From the IMG/VR virus record IMGVR_UViG_3300044971_003419, positions 1-39,888 of that record: a stretch of DNA of 39,888 bases; one strand, 5' to 3'. Shown here in pieces: positions 5,294 to 30,166 of this stretch (position 1 is the stretch's first letter; the number at the start of each line of letters is the position of its first letter). Made by a program: the position numbers and the translations under genes. The notes under the pieces are model-generated. The model saw nothing but the letters and a program-made list of their open reading frames with translations. It had not been told where the DNA came from and did not search any database. This DNA comes from a virus.

Positions 5294-5326
5294 TTAACCA
5301 CAGAGGACACAGAGGGCACGGAGAGG
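5294..5326 (+). repeat. CACAGAGG repeat, copy 1
   Basis: Three 9-bp units (CCACAGAGG, ACACAGAGG, GCACGGAGA) preceded by TTAA. It is the only copy not touching a coding end; it lies 14 bp beyond the decamer array and together with copy 2 brackets the three small genes at 5472-6126. Confidence 0.9.
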
Positions 5327-6165: not shown

Positions 6166-6197
6166 TTGACCACAGAGGACACAGAGGACACGGAGGG
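6166..6197 (+). repeat. CACAGAGG repeat, copy 2
   Basis: Units CCACAGAGG, ACACAGAGG, ACACGGAGG. It fills most of the gap between the TerL stop codon (6203-6205) and the start of the HTH gene (6126). Confidence 0.9.
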
Positions 6198-6202
6198 AGG
6201 AT

Positions 6203-7912
6203 TTAGTAGCAGCCGCCTCCTCGGGTGCGGAGGGAATCCGGGTCCACATATTCGACATCTTTGGCGAGGACGATGTAGCGGAGAACATCAATCCAGTCTT
6301 TGGTTGCGCCGTGCTTTCCGTCTTTGCCAGTCCAAGTTTTGAGGGAGTAGATGAGATTTTGGCAACGCTCGCTGATGTAGAGTCTCGGGGAGTTATCGGA
6401 CCCAAGGGGACGCTCCTCGTCGAAGGCGAGCCAATCGTTGATGATGCCGACGCCTTCAGTGATGGCTTTGCCGGAGGTGGCTTTGAAATGTAGGCCCATA
6501 CGGTCTTCGCATTGCTCGATGAGCGTGCGCACGCCTTCTTCAGTCATGGTGGGGGTGTTGCCGTAGCGAGAATCCATCCAGCGTTCTTCGACTTTGGCGA
6601 TGTCGTCGGCTTTCTCGGCAGCCTCGATGACGGCTTTGTATTCTTTGAATCCAAACCAGCAGCAGGCTTTTTGGGCGGGGCCAGGGCGGCCATCTTCGAG
6701 CTTGCCATCAGCCTCAGCCCACGGGCCGGGGTATCCGACACCTTCGATGTATTCCAGTTGGTTTGGCCATTCGCGGTAAATCCAACAACGGTTGTCTGGA
6801 GTAAATCGAATCCACAACATGGCCCACGCTTTCCCTTCGCCGGGATCGACGAAGTGGAAGACGGTTCCCGCTCTGGGAACTTTGTCGTGAGGGACGACAT
6901 GAACATTCTCGCGGAATTTCGGGAACATGGACATCCGCGCTTTGGTGGGGACGCCGTAGGCTCGCATCAAGATTCGCTCGCGGTTGCTGCCGCGCAGTTC
7001 GGTCTCCATGGCCTCGGGGTTGCCGAAGGGGTTGTCGGCGGTGTGGAAATAAACGACGCGGGCTTTTTCCCTGGTGCATTGCTGGACGCGGGGGACGGTC
7101 TCCAAGCCGATGAGGTTGCCATCGCGGTAGCGGGGAAGGAGCGGGGCGGGGCATTCTTCCAAGGTCTTCGCGCCATCGAGGTATTCTTTGACGGTGGTGG
7201 TGTAGCCTTCGATCGGTGTGAAGCCGATGCCGAGTTCGCCGTCGCGGGTAAGTAGCCTAAAACGAAGGGCTTCCAACCACAGCGGGGTGACTAATTCGTC
7301 TGCCCAACAGAAATTTAACTCGGCACCTTCTATCGAGGTGACTTCCATCGAATAGAACTTGAACCAGCATTGGGAGCCATTCGGCAGCACGAAGCTGTTT
7401 TCGGTGAAGCCGCCTTTCTGCGAGTAGGTGATGTTGGCGACGGCACCTTTTTTGAGTTTGCCGCTGGCGCTGGGTTTCCACTCTTTCGGCAAATACTCCC
7501 ACAAGTAGGGTTGCTGGTTTTGGATGCTGGCGGCTTCGGTGGATTGGAGGCACCAGACTTTTGCGCCGGGTTTCTCAACGAGGTGTTGCATGGCGCGGCG
7601 GGCGAAGTAGCGGGACTTGCCGGAGCGGTTGCCGCCAAGGATGAGGAGTTCGGTGACGCCTTTGGGGAATTTCTCGCGCAGGTCGGCATAGGCGGAATCG
7701 GCGCGCTGCCAGGCGGGGTTTAGCCAGCCGTAGCGCCACGGGTCTTCGACCATGCGGGCGATCTGCTCCTCGCGCTCGCGGTGGATGGCGAGAAGTTGGG
7801 CCTCGGTGGCGGCGAGCTTTTGGCCTCGGTAGCGGACGACGAAGCTGCCATCGGGGCGGCGGCCTTCGACTTCGATGGGGGGGATGACGGGGTTGGGGGT
7901 TTGGGGGATCAT
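6203..7912 (-). CDS. terL: Terminase large subunit (ATPase/nuclease)
   Basis: 569 aa; packages DNA into the prohead by ATP-driven translocation and cuts the concatemer. Walker A is GGNRSGKS (93-100), Walker B NFCWADE (about 200-206). The RNase H-like nuclease has FVDPGEGK (Asp356), MDSRYGN (Asp447) and KDWIDVLRY (Asp539/Asp542). The start ATG at 7912 overlaps the preceding stop as ATGA and directly abuts CACAGAGG copy 3, while copy 2 lies 5 bp beyond the stop, so the gene is bracketed by repeats. No obvious small subunit is adjacent. Confidence 0.95.
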   Translation of the reverse strand: MIPQTPNPVIPPIEVEGRRPDGSFVVRYRGQKLAATEAQLLAIHREREEQIARMVEDPWRYGWLNPAWQRADSAYADLREKFPKGVTELLILGGNRSGKSRYFARRAMQHLVEKPGAKVWCLQSTEAASIQNQQPYLWEYLPKEWKPSASGKLKKGAVANITYSQKGGFTENSFVLPNGSQCWFKFYSMEVTSIEGAELNFCWADELVTPLWLEALRFRLLTRDGELGIGFTPIEGYTTTVKEYLDGAKTLEECPAPLLPRYRDGNLIGLETVPRVQQCTREKARVVYFHTADNPFGNPEAMETELRGSNRERILMRAYGVPTKARMSMFPKFRENVHVVPHDKVPRAGTVFHFVDPGEGKAWAMLWIRFTPDNRCWIYREWPNQLEYIEGVGYPGPWAEADGKLEDGRPGPAQKACCWFGFKEYKAVIEAAEKADDIAKVEERWMDSRYGNTPTMTEEGVRTLIEQCEDRMGLHFKATSGKAITEGVGIINDWLAFDEERPLGSDNSPRLYISERCQNLIYSLKTWTGKDGKHGATKDWIDVLRYIVLAKDVEYVDPDSLRTRGGGCY

Positions 7913-8115
7913 TTGACCACAGAGGACACAGAGGGCACAGAGGAGGATTTGAGTTTATCTTCGCGGAGGCTTAACCAGGTGATGGCGCGTCCGGCGTCGC
8001 CGACATCTTCGGGGGTGACGCATTCGTCGGAGATGATGCCGTGGTCTTGCAGGAGATTGAGGGCGTGGGTGGGATCGAACCGGTGGGCGGTGAGGTAGTC
8101 GCGGAGGGAGTTCAT
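7909..8115 (-). CDS. Hypothetical 68-aa protein with a repeat-encoded C-terminus
   Basis: MNSLRDYLTAHRFDPTHALN followed by LLQDHGIISDECVTPEDVGD. It is coupled by ATGA overlap on both sides and lies directly upstream of terL. The body looks like a small helical protein I cannot name. The last 11 residues (SSVPSVSSVVK) are encoded entirely by CACAGAGG copy 3, so the natural end has apparently been replaced or extended by a repeat while the ATGA junction to terL was kept. Confidence 0.75.
   Translation of the reverse strand: MNSLRDYLTAHRFDPTHALNLLQDHGIISDECVTPEDVGDAGRAITWLSLREDKLKSSSVPSVSSVVK
7913..7946 (+). repeat. CACAGAGG repeat, copy 3 (inside coding sequence)
   Basis: Units CCACAGAGG, ACACAGAGG, GCACAGAGG. 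On the minus strand it encodes the last residues of the 68-aa protein and ends exactly at the terL start codon. Confidence 0.9.
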
Positions 8116-8476: not shown

Positions 8477-8694
8477 TTGGTGGCCTCTTGACGCATGATC
8501 ACGCGGAGCCCTTTGATAACGGCTGTAAGTTCTTCCACTTGGTCCCGCGCCTGGTTGCGCTCGCGCTCCATGCGGCGGCACAATTCAGCGGGAACCGTTG
8601 CACACGAATAGAATCCAATGTGTCCGGAAACTTTGGCGTCCGTCTCGGGCGTAGCCTGCTCCGTGTCCTCTGTGTCCTCTGTGGTCAATTTCAT
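8473..8694 (-). CDS. Hypothetical 73-aa protein with a repeat-encoded N-terminus
   Basis: The ATG at 8694 overlaps the previous stop as ATGA. Residues 2-12 (KLTTEDTEDTE) are encoded by CACAGAGG copy 4. The remainder has a coiled-coil-like segment (CRRMERERNQARDQVEELTA) resembling small helical phage proteins. The stop overlaps the zinc-ribbon start. If the repeat is a late insertion, the ancestral start was displaced or the N-terminus extended in frame. Confidence 0.7.
   Translation of the reverse strand: MKLTTEDTEDTEQATPETDAKVSGHIGFYSCATVPAELCRRMERERNQARDQVEELTAVIKGLRVIMRQEATK
8661..8688 (-). repeat. CACAGAGG repeat, copy 4 (inside coding sequence)
   Basis: Read on the minus strand: CCACAGAGG, ACACAGAGG, ACACGGAGC, preceded by TTGA. 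It starts 6 bp after the start codon at 8694 and encodes TTEDTEDTE. Its orientation is opposite to copies 1-3. Confidence 0.9.
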
Positions 8695-8951
8695 GGATGA
8701 GGCTCGGGGGGATAGTCTTGGAAATGCCCGGCTTTGACGACGAGGCGGCGGGCGTTTTCCACCGCGTCAAAGAAGATTTCCTGCTCGGTGATGTCGCGGG
8801 AGTATTCGGGGGCGCGGACATAGGTGAGGATGTCGCGCAGGCTGGCGGCTAACTCGGTGGCGAGCTTGCAACAATGCGCGACGCCGGGGTGGTCCTGCCA
8901 CTCGCGGCGGCAGGCGGGACAGGCGATCAAGGGGTCGATGGATTGGCTCAT
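8691..8951 (-). CDS. Hypothetical 86-aa protein with Cys/His cluster
   Basis: MSQSIDPLIACPACRREWQD followed by HPGVAHCCKLATELAASLRD. The CPAC pair and the HCC cluster suggest a zinc site at the N-terminus, with a helical remainder. The ATG at 8951 overlaps the previous stop (ATGA), which sets the start. No family is recognised. Confidence 0.7.
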   Translation of the reverse strand: MSQSIDPLIACPACRREWQDHPGVAHCCKLATELAASLRDILTYVRAPEYSRDITEQEIFFDAVENARRLVVKAGHFQDYPPEPHP

Positions 8952-9190
8952 AAATCGAAGAAGCGGTCGATGGGTTGTTTGCCGAGGTGGAGGCGCTGGA
9001 TTTCGGCTTCGATCTCGGCGAGGACGGCCCATTGCTCGCGGGTGTAGGTGCCGCGAAATGGGAAGTCGCATTTCAAAAACCTGCCGTTCTCGAAGGTGAT
9101 GACGATGTTTCCGAGGCTGTGGTCGGAGTCGTCGGTGAGGCGGTAGGTGTGCTCGGTGAGCGTGCGGCTGGATTTGTGGTTGAGGGTCAT
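8948..9190 (-). CDS. Hypothetical 80-aa protein
   Basis: MTLNHKSSRTLTEHTYRLTD is the N-terminus and LAEIEAEIQRLHLGKQPIDR lies near the C-terminus. It has a beta-rich first half and a helical second half. It is the first gene of the ATGA-coupled chain leading to terL and starts 5 bp after the AT-rich gene ends. Function unknown. Confidence 0.7.
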   Translation of the reverse strand: MTLNHKSSRTLTEHTYRLTDDSDHSLGNIVITFENGRFLKCDFPFRGTYTREQWAVLAEIEAEIQRLHLGKQPIDRFFDL

Positions 9191-9194
9191 GGTG

Positions 9195-9428
9195 TTATTT
9201 AGTTGATGGTGGTTCTGGAAAATCTTCCCAATACGAGGCGTAAACTTCTATATAGATGTTTTTTGTTAGTTTTAAATACCTAGTTTTAATTGGATAATGA
9301 ATTATAATGTTTTTTTCTCTGTAATGAAAAACATTTGCGTATTTGATTTTATTAGCTGTTTTTCTATAAAAATATTCATCAATTCCAAAACAATTAAGGT
9401 CTTCATCAAATTCAACTTGCGTGTTCAT
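9195..9428 (-). CDS. AT-rich ORFan, recently acquired (moron-like)
   Basis: 77 aa, rich in Lys, Tyr, Ile and Asn (for example KIKYANVFHYREKNIIIHYP). The stretch 9241-9300 has 12 G/C of 60 and 9301-9360 has 13 of 60, against more than 60% around it, so the gene has a foreign composition. It lies between dnaB and a coupled run of small genes, in the same direction. No membrane segment or known motif was found. It may be a single-gene insertion giving a host or phage fitness function, which cannot be named from sequence. Confidence 0.7.
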   Translation of the reverse strand: MNTQVEFDEDLNCFGIDEYFYRKTANKIKYANVFHYREKNIIIHYPIKTRYLKLTKNIYIEVYASYWEDFPEPPSTK

Positions 9429-9446
9429 TAGTGTTAACCATATTTT

Positions 9447-10811
9447 TTACCTCTGCCTTTCGTTCTGGTTGTTGCTGTATTGTTTTTCGGTGACATTTCG
9501 GAAGACGGTGTGCTGACCGATGAAGTTCAGCTTGATCTCGGGGGTGGGGCCGTTTCTTTGTTTTGCCAAGATGAGCAGGGTGTTGTGATCCATGGGCTCG
9601 TCGTCGGCGTCGCGTTTTTTGTTTTTGTCGAGGCGATGAATCAGCAGAACGGTGTCGGCGTCTTGCTCGATGCTGCCGGATTCGCGGAGGTTCGAGAGCT
9701 TGGGTTTGGAGCCTTCGTCGGCGTCGCGGTTGAGCTGGGCGAGGGCGATGATGGGGATGTTGAGTTCTTTCGCGGTGGTCTTGATGGCCTTGGAAATCTC
9801 GCTGACTTCGAGGGCGCGGCTCTCCCCTGCCCTCTTGCTGCTGCCGTGCATGAATTGCAGGTAATCGACGACGATGAGGCCGAGGCCGTGCTGGGTCTTG
9901 GCGCGGCGGGCGCGGGAGCGGAATTGGGCGACGGTGAGGCCGGGGGTGTCGTCGAGGTAGAGCTTGGCCTGGGCGAGGCGACCGGCGGCGGCTCCGACTC
10001 CGGAGAGCTGGGCGGTGCCAAGGAAGCCGTCGCGGATGCGCTGGAGATCGACCCCGGCTTCGGAGCAGAGGGCGCGGACCATGAGTTCCGTGCTGGGCAT
10101 TTCGACACTGAAGACGAGGGTGGGCACAGCGGCCTCCATGGCGGCGTGGAGGGCGAATTGCATCCCGAGCGCGGATTTGCCGCAGGCGGGGCGGGCGGCG
10201 ATGATGATCATTTGCCCGCCGAGGAATCCTCCGGTGGAGCGGTCGAGATCGTGAATGCCGGTGGCGAGGCCGACGGTCTGGCCTCGGTTGGCGTAGACTT
10301 TCTCGATGTGATCGACGGCGGCGAGGACGGCGGTTTTGCAATGGGAGACGGGGTTTTCCCTGGTGCTTTGCTCGCGGAGGCCGTAGAGGGCGACTTCACA
10401 GCGTTCCATGGCGTCGTCGGTGGTGAGGGCGGGGTCGTTGGCGGCTTCGGCCATGGCGAGGGCGGCTTGGCGCATGGAGCGGCGTCGCCAGATGTCGAGG
10501 ACTTCGGCGGCGTAGTAGCGCCAGTTCGCCGTGACGGCGAGGTCTTGGACGAGATCGGTGAGCCCCTGATGGCCGCCGCACTCTTCGAGCTGGCCGAGTT
10601 TTTCCAACTCGGTGGTGACGAGGATGAGATCGACGGGCCGGGCCTCTTGGCGCATGGCGGCGAGGCAGGAGAGGATGAGGCGGTGGGCGGGGTGCGTGAG
10701 CTGGTCGGGGCTCACGACCTCCAACACGGCATCGGCGTGGCGGCCATCGGCGATGGCGGCTCCGAGGACGGCGCGCTCGGCGAGGAGGTTTTCGGGTAGG
10801 GAGTTTTTCAT
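9447..10811 (-). CDS. dnaB: Replicative DNA helicase, DnaB family
   Basis: 454 aa. Residues 5-100 are the DnaB N-terminal helical domain; the RecA-like motor has Walker A ARPACGKSA (206-214), catalytic Glu in VFSVEMP (about 237), Walker B LIVVDYLQF (312-320), and the H3 motif ALAQLNR with an arginine-finger region after it. It unwinds the phage replication fork. Its start overlaps the upstream 108-aa gene by TGATG. The downstream initiator-like protein would be its loader. Confidence 0.95.
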   Translation of the reverse strand: MKNSLPENLLAERAVLGAAIADGRHADAVLEVVSPDQLTHPAHRLILSCLAAMRQEARPVDLILVTTELEKLGQLEECGGHQGLTDLVQDLAVTANWRYYAAEVLDIWRRRSMRQAALAMAEAANDPALTTDDAMERCEVALYGLREQSTRENPVSHCKTAVLAAVDHIEKVYANRGQTVGLATGIHDLDRSTGGFLGGQMIIIAARPACGKSALGMQFALHAAMEAAVPTLVFSVEMPSTELMVRALCSEAGVDLQRIRDGFLGTAQLSGVGAAAGRLAQAKLYLDDTPGLTVAQFRSRARRAKTQHGLGLIVVDYLQFMHGSSKRAGESRALEVSEISKAIKTTAKELNIPIIALAQLNRDADEGSKPKLSNLRESGSIEQDADTVLLIHRLDKNKKRDADDEPMDHNTLLILAKQRNGPTPEIKLNFIGQHTVFRNVTEKQYSNNQNERQR

Positions 10812-11137
10812 CAGGCGGCGAGGGCGGCGAGCTTGGGTGAGGCGGCGGCGGTGGCGATTTTCAAATCTGCGCCGAAGCCGAGGAGGTGGAAGACTTTGAC
10901 AAAGACGGTGGGGTTCGTCTCGTAGCCGATGAGGCGGTGCTGGATGGCGTCGGACTCGGTGAGGATGGGCTGGCCATTCTCGTCGTAAATAGTCTCGTAG
11001 AGAGGTTCTTCGACGGGGCGGGCGGTGTAGATGCCGACTTGCCAGCGGAGAAAATCATTCACGCAATCGGGGTAATGGCGGGTGACGACACGGGGGCCTT
11101 CGGTGGCTTCTTGGATGGTTTCGATGTAGTTGATCAT
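10811..11137 (-). CDS. Hypothetical 108-aa protein of the replication block
   Basis: MINYIETIQEATEGPRVVTR and YPDCVNDFLRWQVGIYTARP. No recognised domain. It lies between the initiator-like gene and dnaB and shares one base with dnaB (TGATG), so it is probably co-expressed and possibly replication-related. The C-terminus is Ala-rich. Confidence 0.7.
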   Translation of the reverse strand: MINYIETIQEATEGPRVVTRHYPDCVNDFLRWQVGIYTARPVEEPLYETIYDENGQPILTESDAIQHRLIGYETNPTVFVKVFHLLGFGADLKIATAAASPKLAALAA

Positions 11138-11153: not shown

Positions 11154-12053
11154 TTATGCTGCGGAAAGTTCGCGTTGTTTTTCGCGGACCCATGCTTTCA
11201 TGCTATCGGGGAGAGCGGCCCAGGTGGTGAGGTTGCATTCGGGGTGTTCGGACTCGATAAGGTCTCGCCAGCCAGCGGGTTCGACGGCGGCGGGGGCGGT
11301 GGCGGTGGGGTTGTGGCCGGAGCGGGCGGCCCAATCGCGGGCGCGGGTGACTTCGGCGAGGAGGTTATTCAGAAGGGTGGATAAGTCCTTGCGGCGGAAC
11401 TGCGCGGCGAGGCCTTCTTTTTGGCGGTAAGCCCATTCGAGGGTGCGCCACTCGTCTTCGGTGAGGGCGGCGGCGCTTTTTTTATTTTTTTCCCAAGCTC
11501 GGAGGGAGGAAGTGTCGAGCGGTGTCGAGGGCTGGATGCGGAAGAGGGCGCGGAGCCGGGCGAGATGGGGGTGTGTCTCCTCGGGTTTGGGAGTTTCTTC
11601 GACCTCCAACATCATGTCCCCTGTGGGGACTATAGGGGATATATCTATTCTATTCTTATCTAGCTCCTGCCCGTGTCCACTTTCTGTCTGCAATGGAAGT
11701 GGACATTTCTCGGACGAGTGGCGGACAAATTGCTTGCGCTTGGCCTCGTATGCGCGGCGTTTTGCGGAAGCTCCGTTGTGCTCATCAAAGCGTGCAATCT
11801 CAACGCCTTCTTCATTTTCCAAAACCCAACCGACTTTGACCAAGGCGGCTCCGATGCCCTTGACTCCGGTCTTGCGGTCGATGGTGGCGGTGGAGAGGCC
11901 GTGAAGCATCCCGTCTTGGGTCTGGACATCGGCCATGGTCCAGAGCCAATAGAGACCTCCGATGATCTCGGCTTCTTTTTTTCCAGTGAGGTCGCAAAGT
12001 CGGGCGACGCGGGGGTCATCCCAGAGATTGCTACGCATTTTAATCCAGTTCAT
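11154..12053 (-). CDS. Replication initiator / helicase loader-like protein
   Basis: 299 aa. The N-terminus MNWIKMRSNLWDDPRVARLC, with the segment LYWLWTMADVQTQDGMLHGL, matches the winged-helix replisome-organiser domain that many phages carry next to the helicase. A charged linker follows, then a C-terminal helical region (AWEKNKKSAAALTEDEW) that may contact DnaB. The position just before the 108-aa gene and dnaB supports this. The linker contains an A7-T-A7 tract on the coding strand, a possible slippage site. Confidence 0.75.
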   Translation of the reverse strand: MNWIKMRSNLWDDPRVARLCDLTGKKEAEIIGGLYWLWTMADVQTQDGMLHGLSTATIDRKTGVKGIGAALVKVGWVLENEEGVEIARFDEHNGASAKRRAYEAKRKQFVRHSSEKCPLPLQTESGHGQELDKNRIDISPIVPTGDMMLEVEETPKPEETHPHLARLRALFRIQPSTPLDTSSLRAWEKNKKSAAALTEDEWRTLEWAYRQKEGLAAQFRRKDLSTLLNNLLAEVTRARDWAARSGHNPTATAPAAVEPAGWRDLIESEHPECNLTTWAALPDSMKAWVREKQRELSAA

Positions 12054-16048: not shown

Positions 16049-16393
16049 ATGGACCCATCAGGAATCGCGGCAATAAAGTTTGTAAATAGTCCATTTTGGG
16101 GATTTCCATACGCTCTTTGCTTGCTTTCGATGGCTGGCTGCTGCTGGGTCGGTTGCTGGTATTTGGCAAACGAGATTTTCAAAACCAAACCAGCAAAATT
16201 CATTGGTTGGTTTATTCTATTTTCCATGTGTGCGGTTGTTGCGTTTGTGAATCCCGCAACCCCGCCACGCGTTAAAAACGCCATGGCCAAGCGGGAACTT
16301 ACCGAACTCATTTGGGATTGGAAACGAGGAGACCGCGTTGCAATAGAAAAAAGGCTTTCTGATCCGAAAATTCAAAAATTCTACGAAGAATGA
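16049..16393 (+). CDS. Two-pass membrane protein of the lysogeny unit
   Basis: 114 aa. Two hydrophobic segments are clear (about residues 17-42, YALCLLSMAGCCWVGCWYLA, and 52-68, FIGWFILFSMCAVVAFV), followed by a charged cytoplasmic tail (KRELTELIWDWKRGDRVAIE). It starts 4 bp after the repressor stop and overlaps the lipoprotein gene by ATGA. Expression with the repressor suggests a prophage-expressed function such as superinfection exclusion, which is inference. Confidence 0.75.
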   Translation: MDPSGIAAIKFVNSPFWGFPYALCLLSMAGCCWVGCWYLANEIFKTKPAKFIGWFILFSMCAVVAFVNPATPPRVKNAMAKRELTELIWDWKRGDRVAIEKRLSDPKIQKFYEE

Positions 16394-16969: not shown

Positions 16970-17031
16970 CCGACATGCAAAGCGGCAGGCGTCTTTGATA
17001 AGATATTCATTTTCAAATAAAGAACGCCGGT

Positions 17032-17073
17032 CTCTTAATCAATTGGTTCCGGGTTCGAGTCCCGGGGGGCGCA
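17032..17073 (+). other. attP: attP core: 3' part of a tRNA gene (probably tRNA-Lys, CUU)
   Basis: Positions match tRNA numbering 32-73: anticodon loop CTCTTAA (anticodon CTT), 3' anticodon stem, a five-base variable loop, T arm CCGGG-TTCGAGT-CCCGG, acceptor strand GGGGCGC, discriminator A. The 5' anticodon stem does not pair (CCGGT against TCAAT) and no D arm or acceptor 5' strand precedes it, so this is a fragment. A 3' tRNA fragment 120 bp upstream of a tyrosine integrase is the classic attP core: integration would rebuild the host tRNA. Confidence 0.85.
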
Positions 17074-17164
17074 CTTCCTGATTGTTGATCGGAGGGTTCA
17101 TTTAGAGGGTTTTACACTGGTCGTTCTGTTAAATGTGGAAAATTGGTTCGGTTGTGGTTTAGTG

Positions 17165-17192
17165 AAAAGTGGCATGCGGAGTGGCCACTTTT
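17165..17192. promoter_or_regulatory. Hairpin directly in front of the integrase start
   Basis: Arms AAAAGTGGC (17165-17173) and GCCACTTTT (17184-17192) with a 10-nt spacer; the right arm ends at the base before the integrase ATG. It also contains the 8-bp palindrome GTGGCCAC (17181-17188). It could sequester the ribosome site, act as a weak terminator, or bind a protein near attP. Confidence 0.6.
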
Positions 17193-18344
17193 ATGAAAGA
17201 AAAATCACAACGGAAATGGGGGGAGGTTTCGGTCACCTGGGACGATTCCCGGCATGTTTGGTATTATCGCTGCCAGTATCGGGGCAGACGGTATCTGCGG
17301 TCCACCGATGTCAGGACGAAATCGGACAAGCCGACGGCTTTGAAGGTGGCGAAGCGTTTGGCGGAGGCCATCAAGACGGGTGACACGAAGACCCAAGAGG
17401 AGGTGTCGAGGCGGCAGGGGTTCGCTACCGTGCAAGAGGTGGCGGAAAAATGGGAGGAGAAGGGGCCGAAGTCGGCGCGGGCAGTCGCGGGGAGGTTTGA
17501 GCGGTATGTGCGCGAGGAGTTTGAGACGGAGGCGGCGGGAGGTCGCCGGATCAATGAGGTTTTGAGGGCGGATCGGTTTCGGAAATGGGTGGAGAAACAA
17601 GTGGCGGCGGGGCGGGCGGCGGCGGGGATTCGTTCGGATGTGAATTCGATCAAGTCGATGTTTGCTCCAGGAGTGATGCACTATTACGAGGATTTGCATT
17701 TGCCCGATGTGGCGGGGTTTCGAGCGGTGGCGTTTTCGACTCGGCGGCGGGGCGGGGCGGAGGCTGGCAAGGCGGAGCCGTTTCGAGTGATCGACCCGAA
17801 GCAGCTTGTGGCCATGGAAGCGGCGGCGGAAATTTTGCGGACGAGCGAGAAAGAAGAGGATCGAAAAATTTGGGCGGTCTTTGCGTTGATGCGGTGGTGC
17901 GGTTTGAGGAACAACGAGACGATGGAGTTGCGCTGGGATTGGGTGCGCGAGGGAACGAAGGGGCCGGTGTTGGAGTTTGTGAAAAGAAAACTATCGGATG
18001 GCTCCTACTATGTTCCCAAGGGCCGCGACGGGGTGGTTCCGGTTCGGCGGGAATTGTTGGAGCAATTGCGCGGAGCATTTCCAGAGTCGGAAGATTTTGT
18101 GATTCCGCGCAAGCACCAGACGGATGCCGAGGATTTGTATCAGCGGACGATCAATGATTGGGCGCGGGCGTTTCTAGTGAACCGACCTGGGCACAAGGTG
18201 AGCTATGCGCTGCGGGGACAATTCGGCGCGGAGATTGCGATGCGGAGCGGGTTGGAGGTGGCGAGCCGTATGTTGCGGCATGGATCGTTTCAGACCACAT
18301 GGGCGCACTACCATGATTTGATTACGGAGCCCGACCCGTTGTGA
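17193..18344 (+). CDS. int: Tyrosine recombinase (phage integrase)
   Basis: 383 aa from the ATG at 17193; an in-frame GTG at 17169 would add eight residues lying inside the hairpin. An N-terminal arm-binding and SAM-like core domain (residues 1-185) precedes the catalytic domain. Catalytic residues: Arg239 (GLRNNE), candidate Lys276, Arg341 (YALRGQF), His363 (LRHGS) and nucleophile Tyr373 (AHYHDL). The box II position usually His is Tyr338. It would integrate at the tRNA site just upstream. It ends 3 bp from the convergent giant gene with no terminator between. Confidence 0.92.
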   Translation: MKEKSQRKWGEVSVTWDDSRHVWYYRCQYRGRRYLRSTDVRTKSDKPTALKVAKRLAEAIKTGDTKTQEEVSRRQGFATVQEVAEKWEEKGPKSARAVAGRFERYVREEFETEAAGGRRINEVLRADRFRKWVEKQVAAGRAAAGIRSDVNSIKSMFAPGVMHYYEDLHLPDVAGFRAVAFSTRRRGGAEAGKAEPFRVIDPKQLVAMEAAAEILRTSEKEEDRKIWAVFALMRWCGLRNNETMELRWDWVREGTKGPVLEFVKRKLSDGSYYVPKGRDGVVPVRRELLEQLRGAFPESEDFVIPRKHQTDAEDLYQRTINDWARAFLVNRPGHKVSYALRGQFGAEIAMRSGLEVASRMLRHGSFQTTWAHYHDLITEPDPL

Positions 18345-18347
18345 GGA

Positions 18348-21300
18348 TCACGGCCCGTCAGCGGCGACCATTTCGGCTTGGGTGGCGGCTTCGTTGGCGA
18401 GGGCGGCGTCGTATTCTTGCTTGGCGCGGGTCTTGAGGTCGGGGCGAGACAAGAGGATGCGGTATTTGGCGGCGGTGGCGGCTTTCTCCAGGGCGCGGGT
18501 CATGGCGCGGGCTTTGGCGTCCCAGGTGGCTTTGTCGTAGCGGGGATCGGAGAGGACGAACTTTTCCAGCGCGGCGATGCTGAGGGCTCCCATGTCTTTC
18601 TGCATGGCGCTGATCTCTTCGGAGGTGAGGCGGACTTTGACGCCTTCGACGGTGAACTCCGGTTTGACCTGGTTCGGGATGGCTCCGGCCTCGGCGGTGT
18701 ATTTGTAAACCTTGCTCATTTCGGTGAGCGCAGGGCTGCCTTTGATGTAGGAGACCATCGAGGGGTTGAAGAGGACATTGAAGAGCGTGTTGCTGTCCTT
18801 GGCCCAACGCTCGATGGGTTGCCCGGTGATGTCGTATTTCTGCGGGAGGGTTTGGCTTTGGCCGGGGAGTTGCGCCTTGAGTTCGTTGATGAATTGCCGA
18901 GCTGGGGAGCTGTCGCGGGTTTCGCGGACGGCATTGTCGGTGAGTTGCATCCATTGCCTTGCGGCGGTGGGGATGAAGGTGCCGGGAGCGTCGGCGGCGG
19001 TTTTGAGGAGAGCGCCGGGGATGTTGTCGTAGCCGACATCGCGGGCGAATTGATTGAGGCCGGTGAGAAGCGGCTGCTCGACGAGGGAGTTCATGGCTCC
19101 GGTGGCTGCGCCGCCTGCGTAGGCGAGCCAGTTGAGGCCGGTGGCGGCGAGGCTTTGCTTCTTGCCTGCGAGGATGTCTTGCTTGATGGCTTCTTGATTC
19201 TCTCGGGAGTAGGCCCCCATGGCGACGCCGATGGATAGTGGCTGTGCCCAATCGTAGCCGATCACCATGTCGTCGCGCTGTTGTTTCTGAGGGGTCCAGA
19301 AATTGCCGGTCATGAGGGCACGCTTGAGCGCATCGACATTGAGTTTGTAGGCTCCCCAGCCCATGGCGCGGTTGAGATTGCGCTTGTCTTCATCCTTGGC
19401 GTCGCTTCCAGCGGAGATGATGCCGAGGTGGGCGAGCCAGTAGCCGGTGGCGACGAGGCCGGTGGTGCCGACGAGGGCGCGGGAGAAGGAGTCAGCGAAG
19501 GCTTTTTGGTCAAACTCGCGGGAGCTGGAGAGCATCGGCGCGAGGCTTTCGTAGGCGGTGCGAATGAATCCGAGGGGGGAGAATTCCACGGCGCGGGTGA
19601 GGATCGAGCCGGGGACTTGGGTGAATTTCATCAGCAGGGAGCCAATGCCCCAGCGTTGATTGAAATTGAGGACGCGGCGGAGGCCGCCCAGCGTGCGGCT
19701 GGCGGCGTTGTCGTCTTGGTAAATGGCGCGGCCAGCATCCATGCGGGCGGCTGTCACCATGTCGGGATCGGGCGCGAGCATGGGCGTGCCATTTGCGGCG
19801 GCAGCTTTCATGCGGGTGTCGAGGCTGGCGCGGAAGGCGGATTCGTAGAATCCCCGGTCGGAGATGGAGAGGACGAGGCCGAGTGTGGATTCCAGTTGGC
19901 GCAGGACGGGGGCGGTGAAGGTGGGGCCGCTGAGGGCGGAGATGTCAGAGGCGTTGTATTTGCCCGAGGATTGGAGACGACCGAGGCGGATGAGGGTATC
20001 GACCCCCTCGGCGATGCTGGCGATGCGGCCACGGCCTTCCGAGCGGGCGAAGGTGTAGCCTGCCTTGATGTCCCCTACCCCGGCTCCGAGGCCCATGAGG
20101 CGTTCCCCGAGTGAAAGACCGGTGCGGGTGCGCTGGCCGGTGCCGAGGGAAACCAACGCATCCATCGGCACGGAGACGGCATCGGCGGCGAGGTCGGCAC
20201 CGGCCATGAGGGTGTTGCCAACCACATTTCGGATCACCGTTTTAGGATTCAGCAGCATGGCAATGGTCTGGAGGGTGTCCACTTTGTCGAGGAAGCCCGG
20301 CGGCATGAAATCGCGGTAGACGACATCGAGGGCTTCGGCGGCTTTGACGAGCTTGATGCGGGGGTCGGTGGCCTTCTCGTGCTGGGCGAGGATGCGGCGG
20401 ACTTTGGCGCTGTGCTCGGCGCTCCAATGCGGGATGCCGAGCATCTTGGCCATGGCGGCGTGCAGGCTGGCATCGGTGAGCTTGCCTTCGCGGTTGAGGC
20501 GGATGAGGGAGCCGAGCTTGGATTTATCCAGGCGGCGGTCGGAATCGGCGGTGGCGAGGAGGTCTTGGAGGACTTTGGCGCGGGTGTCCTGCGTGGTCTT
20601 GAGGAAATCGCGGACGATGCTGCCGGAGATGCGGGCGGCTCCTTTGTCGGAAAGACCTTGGCCGGTGAGGATGGAGGAGGTCGCGGCTTGGGCGGCAAGC
20701 GGCGTGGGTGCGCCGAGGATGGCTTCGCGGATGGCGATGTTGACCTGCACGGCATCGACTCCAGCGGGGAGCGAGGATTTGATGAGGTCTTTATTGCCGA
20801 CGATGGCGGCGGTGGTGGAGTCGCGGCGGAGTTTGTCCACCTCGCCTTGCAACTGCCCGGCCTCGGTGATCTTGGCTTGGATATCGGCCTTCTGCTTGTC
20901 GGTTTTGGCGGGCTTGGTGGCGGCGGCTTGAAGTTGGCTTTGAGCGAATAGCTCGATGCCTTGCGGCCCGAGGCGGCCAATCATCGAGAGGGCTTGGATG
21001 GCGCGGCCTTGGTCGGTGGCGCGGGTGGCCATCATGTTGGCGATGGAGGCGGCATCGGCATGGCGGCTCCGGTTTTGGAGTTGCGCCATGAGTTCCATGC
21101 CGGTGGCGTAATCCTCGGCGGTAGGCTGCCAGCCTTCGATGGCGGGCTTGCCCATGAGGTCGGTAAAGGCGGTGTCGATGCTACCTGCCGAGTCGATGCG
21201 GGCGCGGGCGTTGGCGAGGGTTTGGGCGTTCGAGACAGGATCGTAGTCGAGCGAGGTGAGGCGGGATTTGACCTCGGGCGCAACGCCTGGGGCGGCTTGG

Positions 21301-24300
21301 AGGGATTGGCCGAACTTGCGGGGCTTGGGTTCGGTAGCGAGATCAACATTTTTGTTGACGGGTTGCCGAAGCGACATAGCGTATTCAACAGAATACTTAC
21401 CTGGAAGAGGTTCTAGCGGGGGGTTCGGCCTTGCAATCCCCTGAGCGGTTGGTCCGGGTGCTCTTGCCGATTGAGCAAAGGCGGCTCTGCGACCGTCAAG
21501 TATTCGCACCCCGGCTGGTTTCCAGCTGGGGTTTTTCTTTGGGAAGCCTGTGACAACGGAATAAAATCCGCCCTTCTCTTCTCGCAACTGCACGACGGAG
21601 ACAATGGTTGGGCGGCGGGAAAGCAAGGCCAGTTTTCCATCCTGTTGCAAATAGACTTCGTTGAAATCCAGCAACACGCGGTGAAGCACAGTTTCCAAAG
21701 GCTCTCGAAAGGCTTCAAAATCCTGTTTGTGCTCTGCAATAATGTGCTGGATTCCGTAACCTTTGTTTGGCCCGAAATGGCTGCCTTTGAGCAGGCGAAT
21801 GGGAAGAGATTTAATTTTCCCTAGGGAGTTCGCTTCGTCTTGATCGGTAAACACGCTCCAATCTTGGTGCCCGGTCGGCGAAAGGATGAGGTCGGTCGGC
21901 TTGTATTGAGGCTCCGATGCAAAACTTATTGAGGGAATGGTCTCTTGAGCGGACGCGGCAGCGGAGGGAGTTGAAGCGGAAGCAGACTCGCGTGAGACGG
22001 GTTGTCCGTTCTCGGCTTTGATTTTGATGAAGTTTTCGTTGAATACCACATAGTTGTAGGTGCCTTGACCTTCCTTTCGACTTCCTTGGTCTAGGTAGCG
22101 GATGCCTGGGATTCCAAGGCGCAGTAAAAACTCACTTTTCTGTTTTGCTGCATCATCTTTGAGATTTGCCCCATAAAATGAATCGGCTTTCCATGTTTTC
22201 ATGGACTCCCAAAGCTCTGGGTCGTCAGCCCATTTTTGAAGTATGCCTCGCACCTTTGCACTCTGCTCATTTAGCGGCTTGTCCCAATCGAGTAGGTCAG
22301 AGTCGTCCACATCGAGTTCGACGGTGTAGAGGTTGCCCATATTGCCTTTTGCAATTTCGTTTGTTTTAGAAATTGCGTTTTCTACTTCGGCATAATTCTC
22401 GTCGCTGAAGTATTTATTGCCACGGGATTTTTCAAACTCACGGGCTGACTTAATCTTGGCTAAAAGTTGTTCTTTAGTTTTAGCTCCGTCAGCAAAATAC
22501 TGGCTTGCGTGTCCCCATATTTGATTTCCAGTTTCGGTCCGCTTTTGCATGGCGGAGATGCCATCCAGAATTAAAGTGTCGCTGGTAAGACGGTTGCGGT
22601 ATTCCTCGGCGACTCTTGGATTTTGAGCAAAATACAACCCCCATCCATAAGCCTGCGCTCCTTCGCCGGTTCCTATCTTTGCGGTGCTGAATTTGTTCAC
22701 CTTATGCGGCGTTCCGTGGTGGGCCTCGATGGCGAGGTCGATGAGGGCCGGGGCTGTAGTGACTTCGGCGTTGGATAAAGCCTGCGTGGGCGGGCGGAGC
22801 GCGGTGCGGGCGACTCGGGCGAGGTCGCGGCGCATGGCGCTGAGGTTAGTGGCGAATTGCTCGGTGCCCCAGGCGGTGCCTTTGGAACGGGCGAGGATTT
22901 CATTGAACCAATTCGTGAGGTTTTCCCAGAGGCGCTTGGCCATGGGCTGATCCTCGGCGCGGAGGGAGTTCCAAAATTCGGGGTCGAGGAAGGCGTCGCC
23001 GAGGGTGTTGTTCGTGAGTTCGGCGGTCTTGGCGCGGGTGCCTTGGTAGAGGGGGCTGGCTCCGGCCTCGCGGGCGCGGGTGCGGTAGTTATCGGTGTAG
23101 CGGGCGACGACGCGGCGGAGTTCCTTGTAAAGTGCGGGGTCGGAATTCTGGATGGTATGGCCCCATTCGTGGCCGATGAGGGCGAGTGCGGGGCGCTGGG
23201 ACTCGGCGTTGATGAAGATCGTGCGGGCATCGTCGCTGCGGACGGCTCCGCCGAAGATGGTCGGGTCGCTGGGCTTTACGAATTGGACGGTGGTGCCGGT
23301 GATGGATTGGAAGCCTTCGAGGAAATCGGCAAACCCGGCTCCGGCGTCCACTCGATCCAGGGAGACGGGCTGAAGGGCGAGGCTTTGGTCGGGAGTGAGG
23401 ATGCCTTGGGTGCGGAGCTGCTGGTTGATGGCTCCTGCGAAGAAGTCGGTGCGGGCTTGTTGCTCGGGAGTGATGCCATTGGTGGTGAAGGAAAATCTCG
23501 CCCCCTCCCCGGTGATCAATTCGGGTGAGCCTGTCGGTTCAGGCGCTATGGGTGCGCTTGCAGCGGGAGCAGAGGCGGTTGGGGGAGTTCCGGAGGCGGG
23601 GCCAAAGGCCTCATCGAGGGCGGCTTGGTCGATGGCGATCTGCGGGGCGCGGACTTGGCCGAGGGTGCGGGGCGCGGGGGAGGAAATGGGGGTGAAGTTT
23701 TGGGGGACTTCGGCGGGGGCGGGCTGGGCGATGGGAGCGGATGATGGAGGGGCCGTCGGGGACGACGGCGTTCCCATGGGGGCGGGCTGGGTCGGTGGCT
23801 GGGCAGGAGGAGTTGGGCGGCGGAGCCTGTCGGCTATCGTGGTGACGCCGGTTTCGAGGGCGACGGGGCCACCGCCGAGGAGGAGGGATTGGGCGGCGGC
23901 GACTTTCATGGCTTCGCCTGTATTGGCGGCGAGCTGGGCGTTGGAAATGGGGTCGCGGACTCCGGCGGACTCGGCGACTTTCTGCTCGATGACGGTCTGC
24001 GCGGGGGTGGTGATGAGGGTTTCACCGGCTGCGGCGGCCCCGAGTTGGCCTGCGCGGCGGGGGAGATTGGCGACGAAGGAGGAGACGGCCCCGGTGTCGC
24101 CCCCACGGATGGCGCGGATGAGGGCTTGGCCGCTGGTGGCGATGGAGTCGCGGGCGACTTTGGCGAGGGCGAGGTCGCCGACGAGTTCAAAGGGGGTCTG
24201 GAGGAGTGCTTGGGAGTGGGCGTAGTCGGAGCGGGCGGCGGGGTCGAGGGGCTTGCCGGTCTGGGCGGCGGATTGGTCGAACTCCTGCTCGGCATTGGAA

Positions 24301-25469
24301 TAGACCTGCGTGTAGCCCATGGCGAGGCCGAGGTAGGGATTGAGGATGGCGGCTCCGGCGGTGGGCACGGTGCGGCCAAGGCCATCGGCGACGGTCATCC
24401 AAAATTCCTTGTCGCGCTCGGGGGTAATTTGCTTGTCGGTGTAGTCGGCGCGGATGGTGGCTTGGTTTTGGCGGGCCTCGGTGGCGAGGTCGGCGGAGGC
24501 GCGGGAGACGCTGCCCAGGAAGTTCTCGGTGACAGGCTCGCCAGTGGTGGCTTGGCGGGCTTTCTCCAACTGGCCGGTGAGGCTGGAGATTTCATGGTCG
24601 AAGGGACTGATGCGGTCGCGGTTCGGGCCGAGGTCGCCTTTGACAAATTCGGTGCGGCGTTGTTGGAGATCGGCGAGGCGGCTTTCGATCTTGGGGACAT
24701 CGGCCTCGGCGGTCTGCGGGGAGGAGTAGAGGTAGGGGTTTTGTTGATCTTTGAAGAAATTTTCGACGATGGAGTAGAAGCCGGAGCGGACATCTTCGAC
24801 TCCGAGGCGAGCCCCACGCTCGGCGCGGTTGTAGTATTCCTCTGGGCGGCTGGGCGGTGCGAGATCGGCAGCGGCTTCGGCGCGGATGGCGGCCATCTGC
24901 TGGTCGGCGGCGGCTTGGGCCTCGGGGGAGACGGCTTGGGCGCGGCGGATGGTGACGGTGCCATCGGCGTTGACGGGGGCGGCTCCGAGTTGGACCTTCT
25001 CGTATTCGGGGAGGCCGAGGATTTCGCCGAGGGCGGCGGCTTGGGAACGGCGTGCTCCTTCTTGGGGGTCGCGGTAGTCGAGGACTCCGAGGGCATCGGC
25101 GAGTTCGGGCTTGAGGACGGGGAGGTTTTGGTCGGGTGTGGTGGCCTCGGCGACGGCTTGCTGGGTGGCGGCTTGGGCTTGCTGGTCGGCTTGCTGGCGC
25201 TCTAGGTAGGCGAGCGCGGCGGCGTAACCGTCGCCCATGGGCTGCGAGGGTGCGGGAGCGGGTTCGTATGCGGTGGCGGTGAGGGTTTCTTCGGAGTCCT
25301 CGGGTATCGAAATGAAATCGGGCTCGCCTTCCATTTCTGGGAGCGGCGTTTCAAAGTCGATGATCTGCGCGCCTTGGGCTGGGGTGGGCGCGGCGAGAGG
25401 ATCGGGGGATTGGTTTGTAGGCCCGTTGAGTTTCGCCAGGTAATCGAGGGCTGCTTGGTAGCCGCTCAT
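18348..25469 (-). CDS. Giant polyvalent protein with protease, ART and nuclease-like domains
   Basis: 2,373 aa from the ATG at 25469 (MSGYQAALDYLAKL). In order: disordered Pro/Ala-rich regions; a zinc-metallopeptidase-like motif HEWGH (767-771); an ADP-ribosyltransferase-like domain of polyvalent proteins (about 915-1150: HHGTPHKVNKF, YGWGLYFAQNP, LLDWDKPL, RYLDQGSR); a Barnase/EndoU/RelE-type nuclease-like domain (about 1190-1330: HFGPNKGYGIQHIIAEH and LETVLHRVLLDFNEV); then a long helical C-terminus (about 1400-2373) with hydrophobic segments such as GLVATGYWLAHLG. By analogy with large podovirus internal proteins it is probably ejected into the host with the DNA. Domain names are from recalled family patterns. 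The ART and nuclease regions are AT-richer than the flanks. Confidence 0.8.
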   Translation of the reverse strand: MSGYQAALDYLAKLNGPTNQSPDPLAAPTPAQGAQIIDFETPLPEMEGEPDFISIPEDSEETLTATAYEPAPAPSQPMGDGYAAALAYLERQQADQQAQAATQQAVAEATTPDQNLPVLKPELADALGVLDYRDPQEGARRSQAAALGEILGLPEYEKVQLGAAPVNADGTVTIRRAQAVSPEAQAAADQQMAAIRAEAAADLAPPSRPEEYYNRAERGARLGVEDVRSGFYSIVENFFKDQQNPYLYSSPQTAEADVPKIESRLADLQQRRTEFVKGDLGPNRDRISPFDHEISSLTGQLEKARQATTGEPVTENFLGSVSRASADLATEARQNQATIRADYTDKQITPERDKEFWMTVADGLGRTVPTAGAAILNPYLGLAMGYTQVYSNAEQEFDQSAAQTGKPLDPAARSDYAHSQALLQTPFELVGDLALAKVARDSIATSGQALIRAIRGGDTGAVSSFVANLPRRAGQLGAAAAGETLITTPAQTVIEQKVAESAGVRDPISNAQLAANTGEAMKVAAAQSLLLGGGPVALETGVTTIADRLRRPTPPAQPPTQPAPMGTPSSPTAPPSSAPIAQPAPAEVPQNFTPISSPAPRTLGQVRAPQIAIDQAALDEAFGPASGTPPTASAPAASAPIAPEPTGSPELITGEGARFSFTTNGITPEQQARTDFFAGAINQQLRTQGILTPDQSLALQPVSLDRVDAGAGFADFLEGFQSITGTTVQFVKPSDPTIFGGAVRSDDARTIFINAESQRPALALIGHEWGHTIQNSDPALYKELRRVVARYTDNYRTRAREAGASPLYQGTRAKTAELTNNTLGDAFLDPEFWNSLRAEDQPMAKRLWENLTNWFNEILARSKGTAWGTEQFATNLSAMRRDLARVARTALRPPTQALSNAEVTTAPALIDLAIEAHHGTPHKVNKFSTAKIGTGEGAQAYGWGLYFAQNPRVAEEYRNRLTSDTLILDGISAMQKRTETGNQIWGHASQYFADGAKTKEQLLAKIKSAREFEKSRGNKYFSDENYAEVENAISKTNEIAKGNMGNLYTVELDVDDSDLLDWDKPLNEQSAKVRGILQKWADDPELWESMKTWKADSFYGANLKDDAAKQKSEFLLRLGIPGIRYLDQGSRKEGQGTYNYVVFNENFIKIKAENGQPVSRESASASTPSAAASAQETIPSISFASEPQYKPTDLILSPTGHQDWSVFTDQDEANSLGKIKSLPIRLLKGSHFGPNKGYGIQHIIAEHKQDFEAFREPLETVLHRVLLDFNEVYLQQDGKLALLSRRPTIVSVVQLREEKGGFYSVVTGFPKKNPSWKPAGVRILDGRRAAFAQSARAPGPTAQGIARPNPPLEPLPGKYSVEYAMSLRQPVNKNVDLATEPKPRKFGQSLQAAPGVAPEVKSRLTSLDYDPVSNAQTLANARARIDSAGSIDTAFTDLMGKPAIEGWQPTAEDYATGMELMAQLQNRSRHADAASIANMMATRATDQGRAIQALSMIGRLGPQGIELFAQSQLQAAATKPAKTDKQKADIQAKITEAGQLQGEVDKLRRDSTTAAIVGNKDLIKSSLPAGVDAVQVNIAIREAILGAPTPLAAQAATSSILTGQGLSDKGAARISGSIVRDFLKTTQDTRAKVLQDLLATADSDRRLDKSKLGSLIRLNREGKLTDASLHAAMAKMLGIPHWSAEHSAKVRRILAQHEKATDPRIKLVKAAEALDVVYRDFMPPGFLDKVDTLQTIAMLLNPKTVIRNVVGNTLMAGADLAADAVSVPMDALVSLGTGQRTRTGLSLGERLMGLGAGVGDIKAGYTFARSEGRGRIASIAEGVDTLIRLGRLQSSGKYNASDISALSGPTFTAPVLRQLESTLGLVLSISDRGFYESAFRASLDTRMKAAAANGTPMLAPDPDMVTAARMDAGRAIYQDDNAASRTLGGLRRVLNFNQRWGIGSLLMKFTQVPGSILTRAVEFSPLGFIRTAYESLAPMLSSSREFDQKAFADSFSRALVGTTGLVATGYWLAHLGIISAGSDAKDEDKRNLNRAMGWGAYKLNVDALKRALMTGNFWTPQKQQRDDMVIGYDWAQPLSIGVAMGAYSRENQEAIKQDILAGKKQSLAATGLNWLAYAGGAATGAMNSLVEQPLLTGLNQFARDVGYDNIPGALLKTAADAPGTFIPTAARQWMQLTDNAVRETRDSSPARQFINELKAQLPGQSQTLPQKYDITGQPIERWAKDSNTLFNVLFNPSMVSYIKGSPALTEMSKVYKYTAEAGAIPNQVKPEFTVEGVKVRLTSEEISAMQKDMGALSIAALEKFVLSDPRYDKATWDAKARAMTRALEKAATAAKYRILLSRPDLKTRAKQEYDAALANEAATQAEMVAADGP

Positions 25470-25471
25470 GG

Positions 25472-26062
25472 TTATTTCCAAAAAGGGTTTTCTTGCTTTT
25501 CGATGTATTGTCTAGCATACCCCAAACCGGCTTTATCCATTTCGGCCAAAGCTTGCTCATGGGTCATTTTGCCTTGCTGTATGAGCGCTTGGTAAAATTG
25601 ACGACCGTAGTTGGCATCGAGCTTGGGTTGAGCGGTCGCGGCGGCAGGAGTGTTAGCGGATTTGTAGTCGGCGAGGTCTTTGTAGCCTTCGATTTGGGCG
25701 GCTTGGTTGTAGCGAGTTTGGAGGTTTTGCATGGCGGGCTGGAAGGCCATGTAAATGCCGGACATTTTATCGAGGTTGTTACCAGCGTCGGCCATTCGCT
25801 TGGTGATGATTTGTTGCAGGGCTACTCCTTCGGCTCCGTAAGTGGGCAGGGTGGACTGCATGGTATTAAGGGCTTCGCCAATGGCAGTTGCTTTACTTGC
25901 CTCCTCTTGTTTCTGTTTAAGGACTCCCGTGAGCGCGGTGCCTACATTGCCAATTTGCTCGCCCAAAAATTGCTTGGTCTGCATATCTTGCTCGGCGGCT
26001 TTTATTTGATATGCGGCGAGAATTTCGCCGGAGCGGTCGTTGACGGTGGGGTTGTAGGGCAT
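25472..26062 (-). CDS. Internal virion protein candidate, 196 aa
   Basis: MPYNPTVNDRSGEILAAYQI then a helical Gln/Ala-rich protein with no membrane segment. It lies between the glycine-zipper protein and the giant protein, 2 bp from the latter's start, so the three probably form an ejection/internal core set. No family is recognised. Confidence 0.65.
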   Translation of the reverse strand: MPYNPTVNDRSGEILAAYQIKAAEQDMQTKQFLGEQIGNVGTALTGVLKQKQEEASKATAIGEALNTMQSTLPTYGAEGVALQQIITKRMADAGNNLDKMSGIYMAFQPAMQNLQTRYNQAAQIEGYKDLADYKSANTPAAATAQPKLDANYGRQFYQALIQQGKMTHEQALAEMDKAGLGYARQYIEKQENPFWK

Positions 26063-28693: not shown

Positions 28694-30096
28694 TTGGCTT
28701 CGAGGGCGGCGACGCGGGCAGCGAGTTCTTGGACGGCGGCGACGAGGAGCGGGACGAGTTTGGATTGGTCGATGCCTTGATGGATGGGTTTGCCGTCTGC
28801 ATCCACGGCGTCCTTGGTGCCGGTGACGGCTTCGGGCACAACGGCTTGGGCTTCGTGGGCTAGGAAGCCATCGACTTTCGGTGCGGTAGGATGGCCAACC
28901 CACTTGAACCGGTGGACCGGCAAGGCCGACAAGCGATCCAATGCGCCGGTTAGTTTTTCGAGGTCGGTTTTAAGCCGGTGGTCGGAGCTAGTGCTATAAA
29001 TGACGCCTGTGTTTGTGCTGTTGGTTAAAATTCCGCCAATGTATGTTCCTGTCGATGTATTTATATTGTATATTCCACTACTAGGCCCAGGCGAAACGCC
29101 TGTTATGAGAGCAATGTCTATGCCACCGAAATTATTACGAGCTACAATAGTATTGATTAAATTACTGCTCGTGGCCGTGGTGCGAGCGTTTGCAAGAGTC
29201 CCGCTTGTAATTGTCTCAGCGCTCTGATTGTGAACAATGTTTGCTTTACCTGACAAAAGCGTTCCAATTTCAAGCTCAGTATAGTATCTGTCATCGTGCG
29301 TGTGCGCGGTCGGCGTCCTAGCATCCGAGAGACGGGAATCCGTCGTGATGACCGCCGTGCCCGTGATGGCACTTGGCGCGATGCCGCTGGCAGGCGCGTA
29401 GCTTCCAGACGCCTGCTTGCCTGCCAACAGAGTATTTATCTCTGTCTCGGTGTAATATCTGTCGTCGTGGTTGTGGTTTGCTGGAGCGGCGTAAGCACTG
29501 AAATTTGCAGAATGTAAAAGAGGATAAGAATTATTGCCTTGCGACCAACCGCCCACTTTTAGTTGATTGTCATTATCGACACCTAAATATGTTGCATAAG
29601 TGCCAGGCCGGTGAAATGTCATCATCGCCGCCCCGCCGGTTCCAATAACTTCCAATTTATTTAACCCACCGGTTTCGTTTGCGATACTGCTATTTGCTGA
29701 AAGAAAACTGATATTGTTGGTCGCAGTTCCGGAAATGCTTGATGCATCGTGCGTGTGGCTGGCGGCGGCGTAGCTCCCGGCAGCCTGCTTGCCTGCGAGC
29801 AGGCTATTGACCTCGGTCTCTGTGTAGTAACGATCATCATGCGTATGCGTGGTCGGCGTCCTGGCGTCCGAGAGGCGCGAGTCGGTCGTGATCACCGCCG
29901 TGCCCTGCACCGCAGTTGGAAGAACTTTTCCTGCCGTGCTGATCTGCGCGAGCTTGGTATCAGCGATGGCGGCATTTGCGGCGAGGTCGGCGTTGGTGAT
30001 GTTGGCGATAGTGGCCGAATCGACGAGTTGGTGAATTTTCTCGGGAGTGACGAGTTCGCCGTTTACGAAGGTTTTGCCTTTGGTGATGGTTGCCAT
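28690..30096 (-). CDS. Tail fibre with C-terminal peptidase S74 chaperone
   Basis: 468 aa. Repeated receptor-fibre modules: HTHDDRYYTE at about residues 84 and 265 and the variant HNHDDRYYTE at 208, and a duplicated stretch ITTDSRLSDARTPT. The C-terminal intramolecular chaperone (about 369-468) has SSDHRLK (Ser371/Lys376 dyad), then FKWVGHP and GFLAHEAQAVVPEAV, as in auto-cleaving tail spikes. It trimerises and cleaves itself. The leader carries the heptad repeat A with no Shine-Dalgarno site. Confidence 0.92.
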   Translation of the reverse strand: MATITKGKTFVNGELVTPEKIHQLVDSATIANITNADLAANAAIADTKLAQISTAGKVLPTAVQGTAVITTDSRLSDARTPTTHTHDDRYYTETEVNSLLAGKQAAGSYAAASHTHDASSISGTATNNISFLSANSSIANETGGLNKLEVIGTGGAAMMTFHRPGTYATYLGVDNDNQLKVGGWSQGNNSYPLLHSANFSAYAAPANHNHDDRYYTETEINTLLAGKQASGSYAPASGIAPSAITGTAVITTDSRLSDARTPTAHTHDDRYYTELEIGTLLSGKANIVHNQSAETITSGTLANARTTATSSNLINTIVARNNFGGIDIALITGVSPGPSSGIYNINTSTGTYIGGILTNSTNTGVIYSTSSDHRLKTDLEKLTGALDRLSALPVHRFKWVGHPTAPKVDGFLAHEAQAVVPEAVTGTKDAVDADGKPIHQGIDQSKLVPLLVAAVQELAARVAALEAK

Positions 30097-30135: not shown

Positions 30136-30166
30136 CCTCTGTGTTCTCTGTGTGCTCTGTGGTTAA
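30136..30166 (-). repeat. CACAGAGG repeat, copy 5, supplying a stop codon
   Basis: On the minus strand: TTAACCACAGAG, CACACAGAG, AACACAGAGG. Its leading TTAA provides the TAA stop of the 635-aa gene. It is directly adjacent to heptad repeat A. Confidence 0.9.

Follow-up and report, generated by a model that had tools for sequence, protein, structure and literature searches.

Pseudomonas Mu-like phages carry accessory ORFs at fixed plastic regions that coincide with GC valleys, and some of these ORFs are anti-CRISPR genes, according to the available portions of that study (PMC4378225). A second point of reference is DUF551, described as having the hallmarks of a portable domain and present in YfdS as well as in variant V2 of Ea22 (PMC10834534, available portions). 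YfdS has been linked to stress tolerance, and an excess of YfdS and its neighbours to the inhibition of replication initiation (PMC4776307, available portions).

Here, we analyzed a window of 39,888 bases, an IMG/VR virus record with an overall GC content of 60.3%. It contains a 77-aa AT-rich accessory ORF without a database family, AT77 (9195–9428, minus strand), between a dnaB-like helicase gene and the conserved gene g80. This slot resembles the plastic regions of the Mu-like phages, as far as the available portions of the study describe them (PMC4378225): a single small ORF of lower GC lies at a fixed place between genes that are adjacent in relatives, the set of ORFs varies by phage, and no recombinase target is recognised. 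However, the phage family and the host are different, we found no dedicated promoter or terminator for AT77, and no full-length relative of it is known. In keeping with the description of a moron, AT77 is a single coding region between genes that adjoin in related phages (33 of 70, with the exact empty junction in locus L050), and its composition is unlike that of its surroundings (26.5% versus 60.3% GC). Since the promoter and terminator that a moron should possess were not found, in a scan limited to the sigma-70 consensus and therefore not final, we call AT77 moron-like and not a moron. We read AT77 as an accessory gene acquired recently in a variable dnaB/g80 slot, and assign this reading a probability of roughly 85%. 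It is a new occupant of a type of slot already known.

The minus-strand genes around AT77 follow each other in the order replication-initiator-like gene (11154–12053), 108-aa gene (10811–11137), dnaB (9447–10811; Pfam DnaB_C, 3.5e-84; phrog_19), AT77, g80 (8948–9190), further small genes and large terminase gene (6203–7912). The dnaB gene forms the left edge of the slot and g80, an 80-aa gene conserved in 11 viral loci and located next to dnaB in relatives, forms the right edge. A tyrosine integrase gene (17169–18344, plus strand) adjoins a tRNA-Leu gene (16989–17074), and the phage is therefore probably temperate. Relatives of the terminase in bacterial genome records were found in two Verrucomicrobia MAGs, one of them labelled Chthoniobacter flavus, and the family most likely consists of temperate phages of Verrucomicrobia. 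Elsewhere in the window, a 2377-aa ORF (18348–25481, minus strand) had no PHROGs match at E 0.001. A dispersed repeat, ACCACAGAGGACACAGAGGACACGGAG, occurs at 5297–5314, 6169–6195 and 7916–7942 on the plus strand and at 8659–8685 and 30137–30163 on the minus strand; nine matches with at most three mismatches were counted against 0.03 expected, and a similar pattern gave 106 matches in 55 of 80 related loci. In L070–L072, a related repeat lies directly after dnaB and before the DUF551 gene.

AT77 begins with an ATG and comprises 77 codons followed by TAA. The initial annotation had singled it out as a very AT-rich single gene after dnaB, which our analysis bears out: over all 234-base stretches GC averages 0.603 (sd 0.062) and falls to a minimum of 0.252 at 9216, compared with no less than 0.410 (at 22339) elsewhere, so that AT77 is by a wide margin the most AT-rich stretch of its length in the window. 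The accompanying counts of 12 and 13 G/C per 60 bases came to 13 and 13 when repeated (lines 9240–9299 and 9300–9359). The next most AT-rich stretches, with 41–43% GC, lie at 22339–22572, 29025–29258, 29492–29725 and 16160–16393 and are possible further accessory regions, judging by composition.

The GC content of the three codon positions in AT77 is 34.6, 25.6 and 19.2%, a pattern as expected for an AT-rich coding gene. When the slot was shuffled 5000 times with dinucleotides preserved, only 3 shuffles contained an ORF of at least 77 codons on that strand, and AT77 is therefore longer than expected by chance in this AT-rich slot. Its start follows the dnaB stop by 18 nt and its end precedes g80 by 4 nt on the same strand, and it is thus collinear with the replication genes, as had been proposed. 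No terminator-like sites were detected in 8900–9700, and the sole minus-strand promoter-like match (9330–9301; sigma-70 consensus scan only, not final) lies inside the AT77 ORF and not ahead of it. AT77 would be transcribed by read-through from dnaB and hence made early. A well-spaced ribosome-binding site was not found before the AT77 ATG. The dnaB end carries an AGAGG whose spacing better suits a 9-codon ORF, MVNTNEHAS, which runs across the start of AT77 in a different frame (9412–9441, minus strand); this small ORF may couple or limit the translation of AT77.

The lack of a well-placed ribosome-binding site and the presence of AT77 in one record only would be in line with the insert being an assembly chimaera, or with the ORF not being a gene. 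The frame is intact, however, with coding-like GC at its codon positions and a length that shuffling rarely reproduces, both junctions match known empty sites, and the N-terminus is related to that of a different gene in the family, with matching positions of the start codons. We consider an artefact of either kind very improbable.

To relate the slot to other phages we used a DnaB scan, in which 85 loci were found and 80 kept. A junction was considered readable when it showed the end of dnaB as well as the core gene that follows (g80 or g126). Five loci without the dnaB end (L074, L075, L076, L077 and L080) and five without a g80 or g126 anchor (L017, L053, L070, L079 and L081) were left out of the junction count, so that 70 relatives and the window remained. 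The slot is empty in 33 of the 70 relatives, with the core genes adjacent or at most 60 nt apart; these include five loci with g126 instead of g80 after dnaB (L062–L066) and one with 48 nt between the core genes (L046). A GC-rich DUF551 gene is the only occupant in 18 relatives, seven of which were recovered from tblastn matches after being missed by the ORF filter (L002, L011, L012, L015, L018, L020 and L025). Other small genes, mostly of 26–45% GC, are present in 19, several of which also hold a DUF551 gene (e.g. L004, L007, L013 and L026). In 17 of these 19 loci the first cargo gene has at most 45% GC, and in four it has 26%. The cargo comprises an 83-aa gene (33–35% GC), a 107–108-aa gene (26% GC), a 260-aa gene (37–41% GC), helix-turn-helix genes, a DUF6551 gene and a P-loop fragment. 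Homologous cargo recurs at the slot in lineages with differing dnaB (L027/L068, 57%; L022/L057, 49%; L030/L052, 41% identity), which looks like exchange of cargo within a family pool.

An AT77 homologue was found at none of the 70 readable junctions. The nearest g80-bearing relatives, with nucleotide identities of 94–97% in dnaB and 97–99.6% in g80, mostly hold a DUF551 gene in the slot. Since the junction lacks a homologue even in these close relatives and empty sites exist, AT77 appears to have been gained recently, and this part of the earlier proposal of a recent arrival from a low-GC source is retained. The initial annotation had named family-wide homologues of similar composition at this locus as the observation that would speak against it; no such homologues were seen at the readable junctions, although some relatives hold unrelated genes that are similarly AT-rich. 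In a MAG contig (L096), dnaB is followed by another GC-rich gene and not by g80. A second variable slot was noticed just upstream of dnaB in L003, L034, L038, L041 and L047, where an extra 91–92-aa gene of 41–44% GC lies between the 108-aa gene and dnaB.

The same counts bear on the idea that the AT-richness has a local DNA cause, i.e. an origin or regulatory region in which the ORF is incidental. Such a cause would suit the AT-richest stretch of the window, located directly beside replication genes, but 33 of the 70 relatives do without this DNA, which indicates that no essential family site lies there. In addition, only short weak repeats and no repeat array were found, and we regard a local DNA cause as extremely improbable.

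The junctions themselves were compared letter by letter. The left junction, TAAAAAATA (9441–9449, minus strand), includes the dnaB stop and is the same as in the empty sites of L050, L031 and L041. The right junction, AAATAACACC (9191–9200, minus strand), contains the AT77 stop and is likewise found in empty sites. The empty junction from dnaB to g80 reads TAAAAAATAACACC followed by ATG in L050, and is one A longer in L031, L041, L047 and L078. Read together, the two flanks of AT77 in the window give exactly the L050 junction. With the same letters on either side, AT77 thus sits cleanly in a site of the empty type. The ends of the insert share a direct repeat of five bases, AAATA, which is too short to be informative. 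Recombination between related phages through the conserved flanks, dnaB and g80, may have brought AT77 in; alternatively, it may have entered by illegitimate recombination at the short AT-rich junction.

Several unrelated cargo genes in the family are preceded by a leader like TTTTCCCCAGAA. Among the 80 loci it was found eight times, in each case 3–4 nt past the dnaB stop (L005:4834, L016:2664, L017:7366, L022:7366, L030:4313, L034:3577, L053:3403 and L057:5965), and is possibly a recombination anchor or a regulatory element. The leader is absent from the window when searched as TTTCCCYAGAA with one mismatch allowed.

Next to its position, we examined the relationships of the AT77 protein. Searches against Pfam, NCBIfam and PADLOC gave no family at E values up to 1, and PHROGs returned only two weak matches, to families without an assigned function (best E 0.031). 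There was no match among PDB sequences and there were no homologues in viral contigs or genome contigs; AT77 was also absent from both MAGs that hold relatives (0 of 2). Plasmid records gave matches with a best E of 5, mostly Acinetobacter integrase genes among the matches listed, which we took as chance. The same applies to the matches in 4 of 384 genomes of the class at E ≤ 0.1: the best (E 0.0025) has four internal stops, and of the other three (E 0.03–0.04) two lie inside long frames and one has two stops. An AlphaFold prediction, made without relatives, reached a pLDDT of 38.6, and the model is unusable. AT77 is confined to one record among those examined, and no full-length relative was found.

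The initial annotation had further suggested a search for homologues in low-GC phages, which came to nothing: the best match in 50,697 phage records had an E of 5. This bears on a reading along the lines of that annotation, in which the gene came from a low-GC phage and its product acts in counter-defence or host takeover. The gene is small, AT-rich, single and located beside early genes, and anti-CRISPR genes have been described in the low-GC accessory regions of Mu-like phages of Pseudomonas, in the available portions of that work (PMC4378225). The analogy is general, however, and fits any accessory gene, and the proposal finds no PADLOC family, no homologue among the phage records and no donor; we judge it unlikely. 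A low-GC source as such is plausible but unproven. A gene pool shared among phages is no less likely, because four other occupants of the slot also have 26% GC and two relatives have, beside dnaB, an AT-rich segment that the N-terminus of AT77 matches.

We then asked whether AT77 is related to the DUF551 gene that siblings carry in the same slot. Its C-terminal tail, IEVYASYWEDFPEPPSTK (9198–9251, minus strand), resembles the end of the DUF551 slot gene, IEAAVLHWADFPSPPTTK. Residues 60–77 matched this end by tblastn, and since the pair was picked after scanning all loci, the set-wide E of 0.011 is weaker than the single-pair figure. Hhalign gave P 1.2e-4 and a probability of 54%, and only 1 of 20,000 shuffles scored as high against the profile of alignment A3. 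A C-terminal tail of the type W-x-P-[LF]-P-x-P-P, also seen in alignment A3, is a mark of DUF551, and AT77 has a tail of this type, WEDFPEPP. A pattern search for a YWxDFP tail gave no matches. Upstream of the tail the similarity fades: the 30 residues before it match the DUF551 profile weakly (p 0.21 at the strict offset; p 0.04 to 0.09 when the best of 3 to 7 offsets is taken). Pfam assigns the sibling slot gene to DUF551 with E 8.9e-5; the copy in L006 passes the gathering score of 22 bits with 23.7 bits and that in L007 fails with 14.3 bits. AT77 does not match Pfam DUF551 (PF04448) even at E 10. The model of the sibling DUF551 protein is a small beta fold (pLDDT 87), the best BFVD viral structure matches of which are mostly named DUF551; its similarity to Tudor domains in the PDB is not significant (best E 0.76). 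PDB sequence matches of the DUF551 profile were mostly 'Cake'/'Scone' repeat proteins found via short repeats and were discarded.

AT77 therefore shares with DUF551 the slot in siblings, a W-x-x-F-P-E-P-P tail and a similar length, whereas it fails the Pfam model, its first 60 residues are not convincingly alignable, and its GC content is 26% in contrast to about 60%. The similarities could mean that AT77 is a genuine, highly diverged DUF551 protein that stems from a low-GC phage and whose gene displaced the GC-rich one by xenologous replacement. The shared slot, the tail, the best-offset similarity upstream of it and the lack of any other DUF551 match within the window are all in favour. The silence of the Pfam model at E 10, the resemblance of the N-terminal third of AT77 to the start of an unrelated gene and a right junction of the empty-site and not the DUF551 form argue against it. 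We hold such a replacement to be possible but doubtful. The tail also suggests that AT77 might substitute for the siblings' DUF551 protein from the same slot, and we propose a DUF551-like role only tentatively, as less likely than not.

The N-terminal module of AT77, MNTQVEFDEDLNCFGIDEYFYR (9363–9428, minus strand), has a counterpart in L061 and L076, where the gene upstream of dnaB begins with a similar AT-rich segment. Residues 3–22 share 12 of 20 identical positions with this start (BLASTP, E 5e-6 for the one pair); as this similarity, too, was picked after scanning all loci, the set-wide E is a weaker 0.004. None of 5000 shuffles scored as high. The upstream gene belongs to the g108 family, with an added AT-rich stretch at its N-terminal end, and has the pattern TQxEFDEDxNxFG in common with AT77 over the first ~20 residues, with the start codons aligned; in L061 it is AT-rich like AT77 (31% GC in the first 144 nt). 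However, it runs on into a GC-richer g108 domain that is absent from AT77, and dnaB lies between its position and that of AT77. Apart from proteins judged unrelated, degenerate DNA patterns of this N-terminal motif matched only the L061 and L076 contigs (present again as L092 and L094), and a scan with the L061 N-terminus gave nothing beyond the same two contigs.

Taken with the tail, this N-terminus would allow AT77 to be a newly assembled chimaeric gene, composed of an AT-rich N-terminal module, shared with a gene beyond dnaB, and a DUF551-type tail, in the slot that holds a complete DUF551 gene in siblings, which we consider decidedly unlikely. If it were so, the slot would be a site that builds small replication-linked accessory proteins from exchangeable ends, and AT77 would be a new small protein that regulates replication of the host or the phage.

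As a recently gained accessory gene, AT77 would encode a small modular binding protein that probably functions early in infection. Its most likely role would be that of an early auxiliary factor modulating the host or the choice between lysis and lysogeny. By analogy, the DUF551 literature, in its available portions, makes a regulatory role conceivable without proving it. For this environmental family of Verrucomicrobia phages, the empty and differently filled sites in the 70 relatives show that a precisely delimited slot with mostly AT-rich cargo adjoins the helicase gene. Such slots are good places to seek new counter-defence and host-takeover genes.
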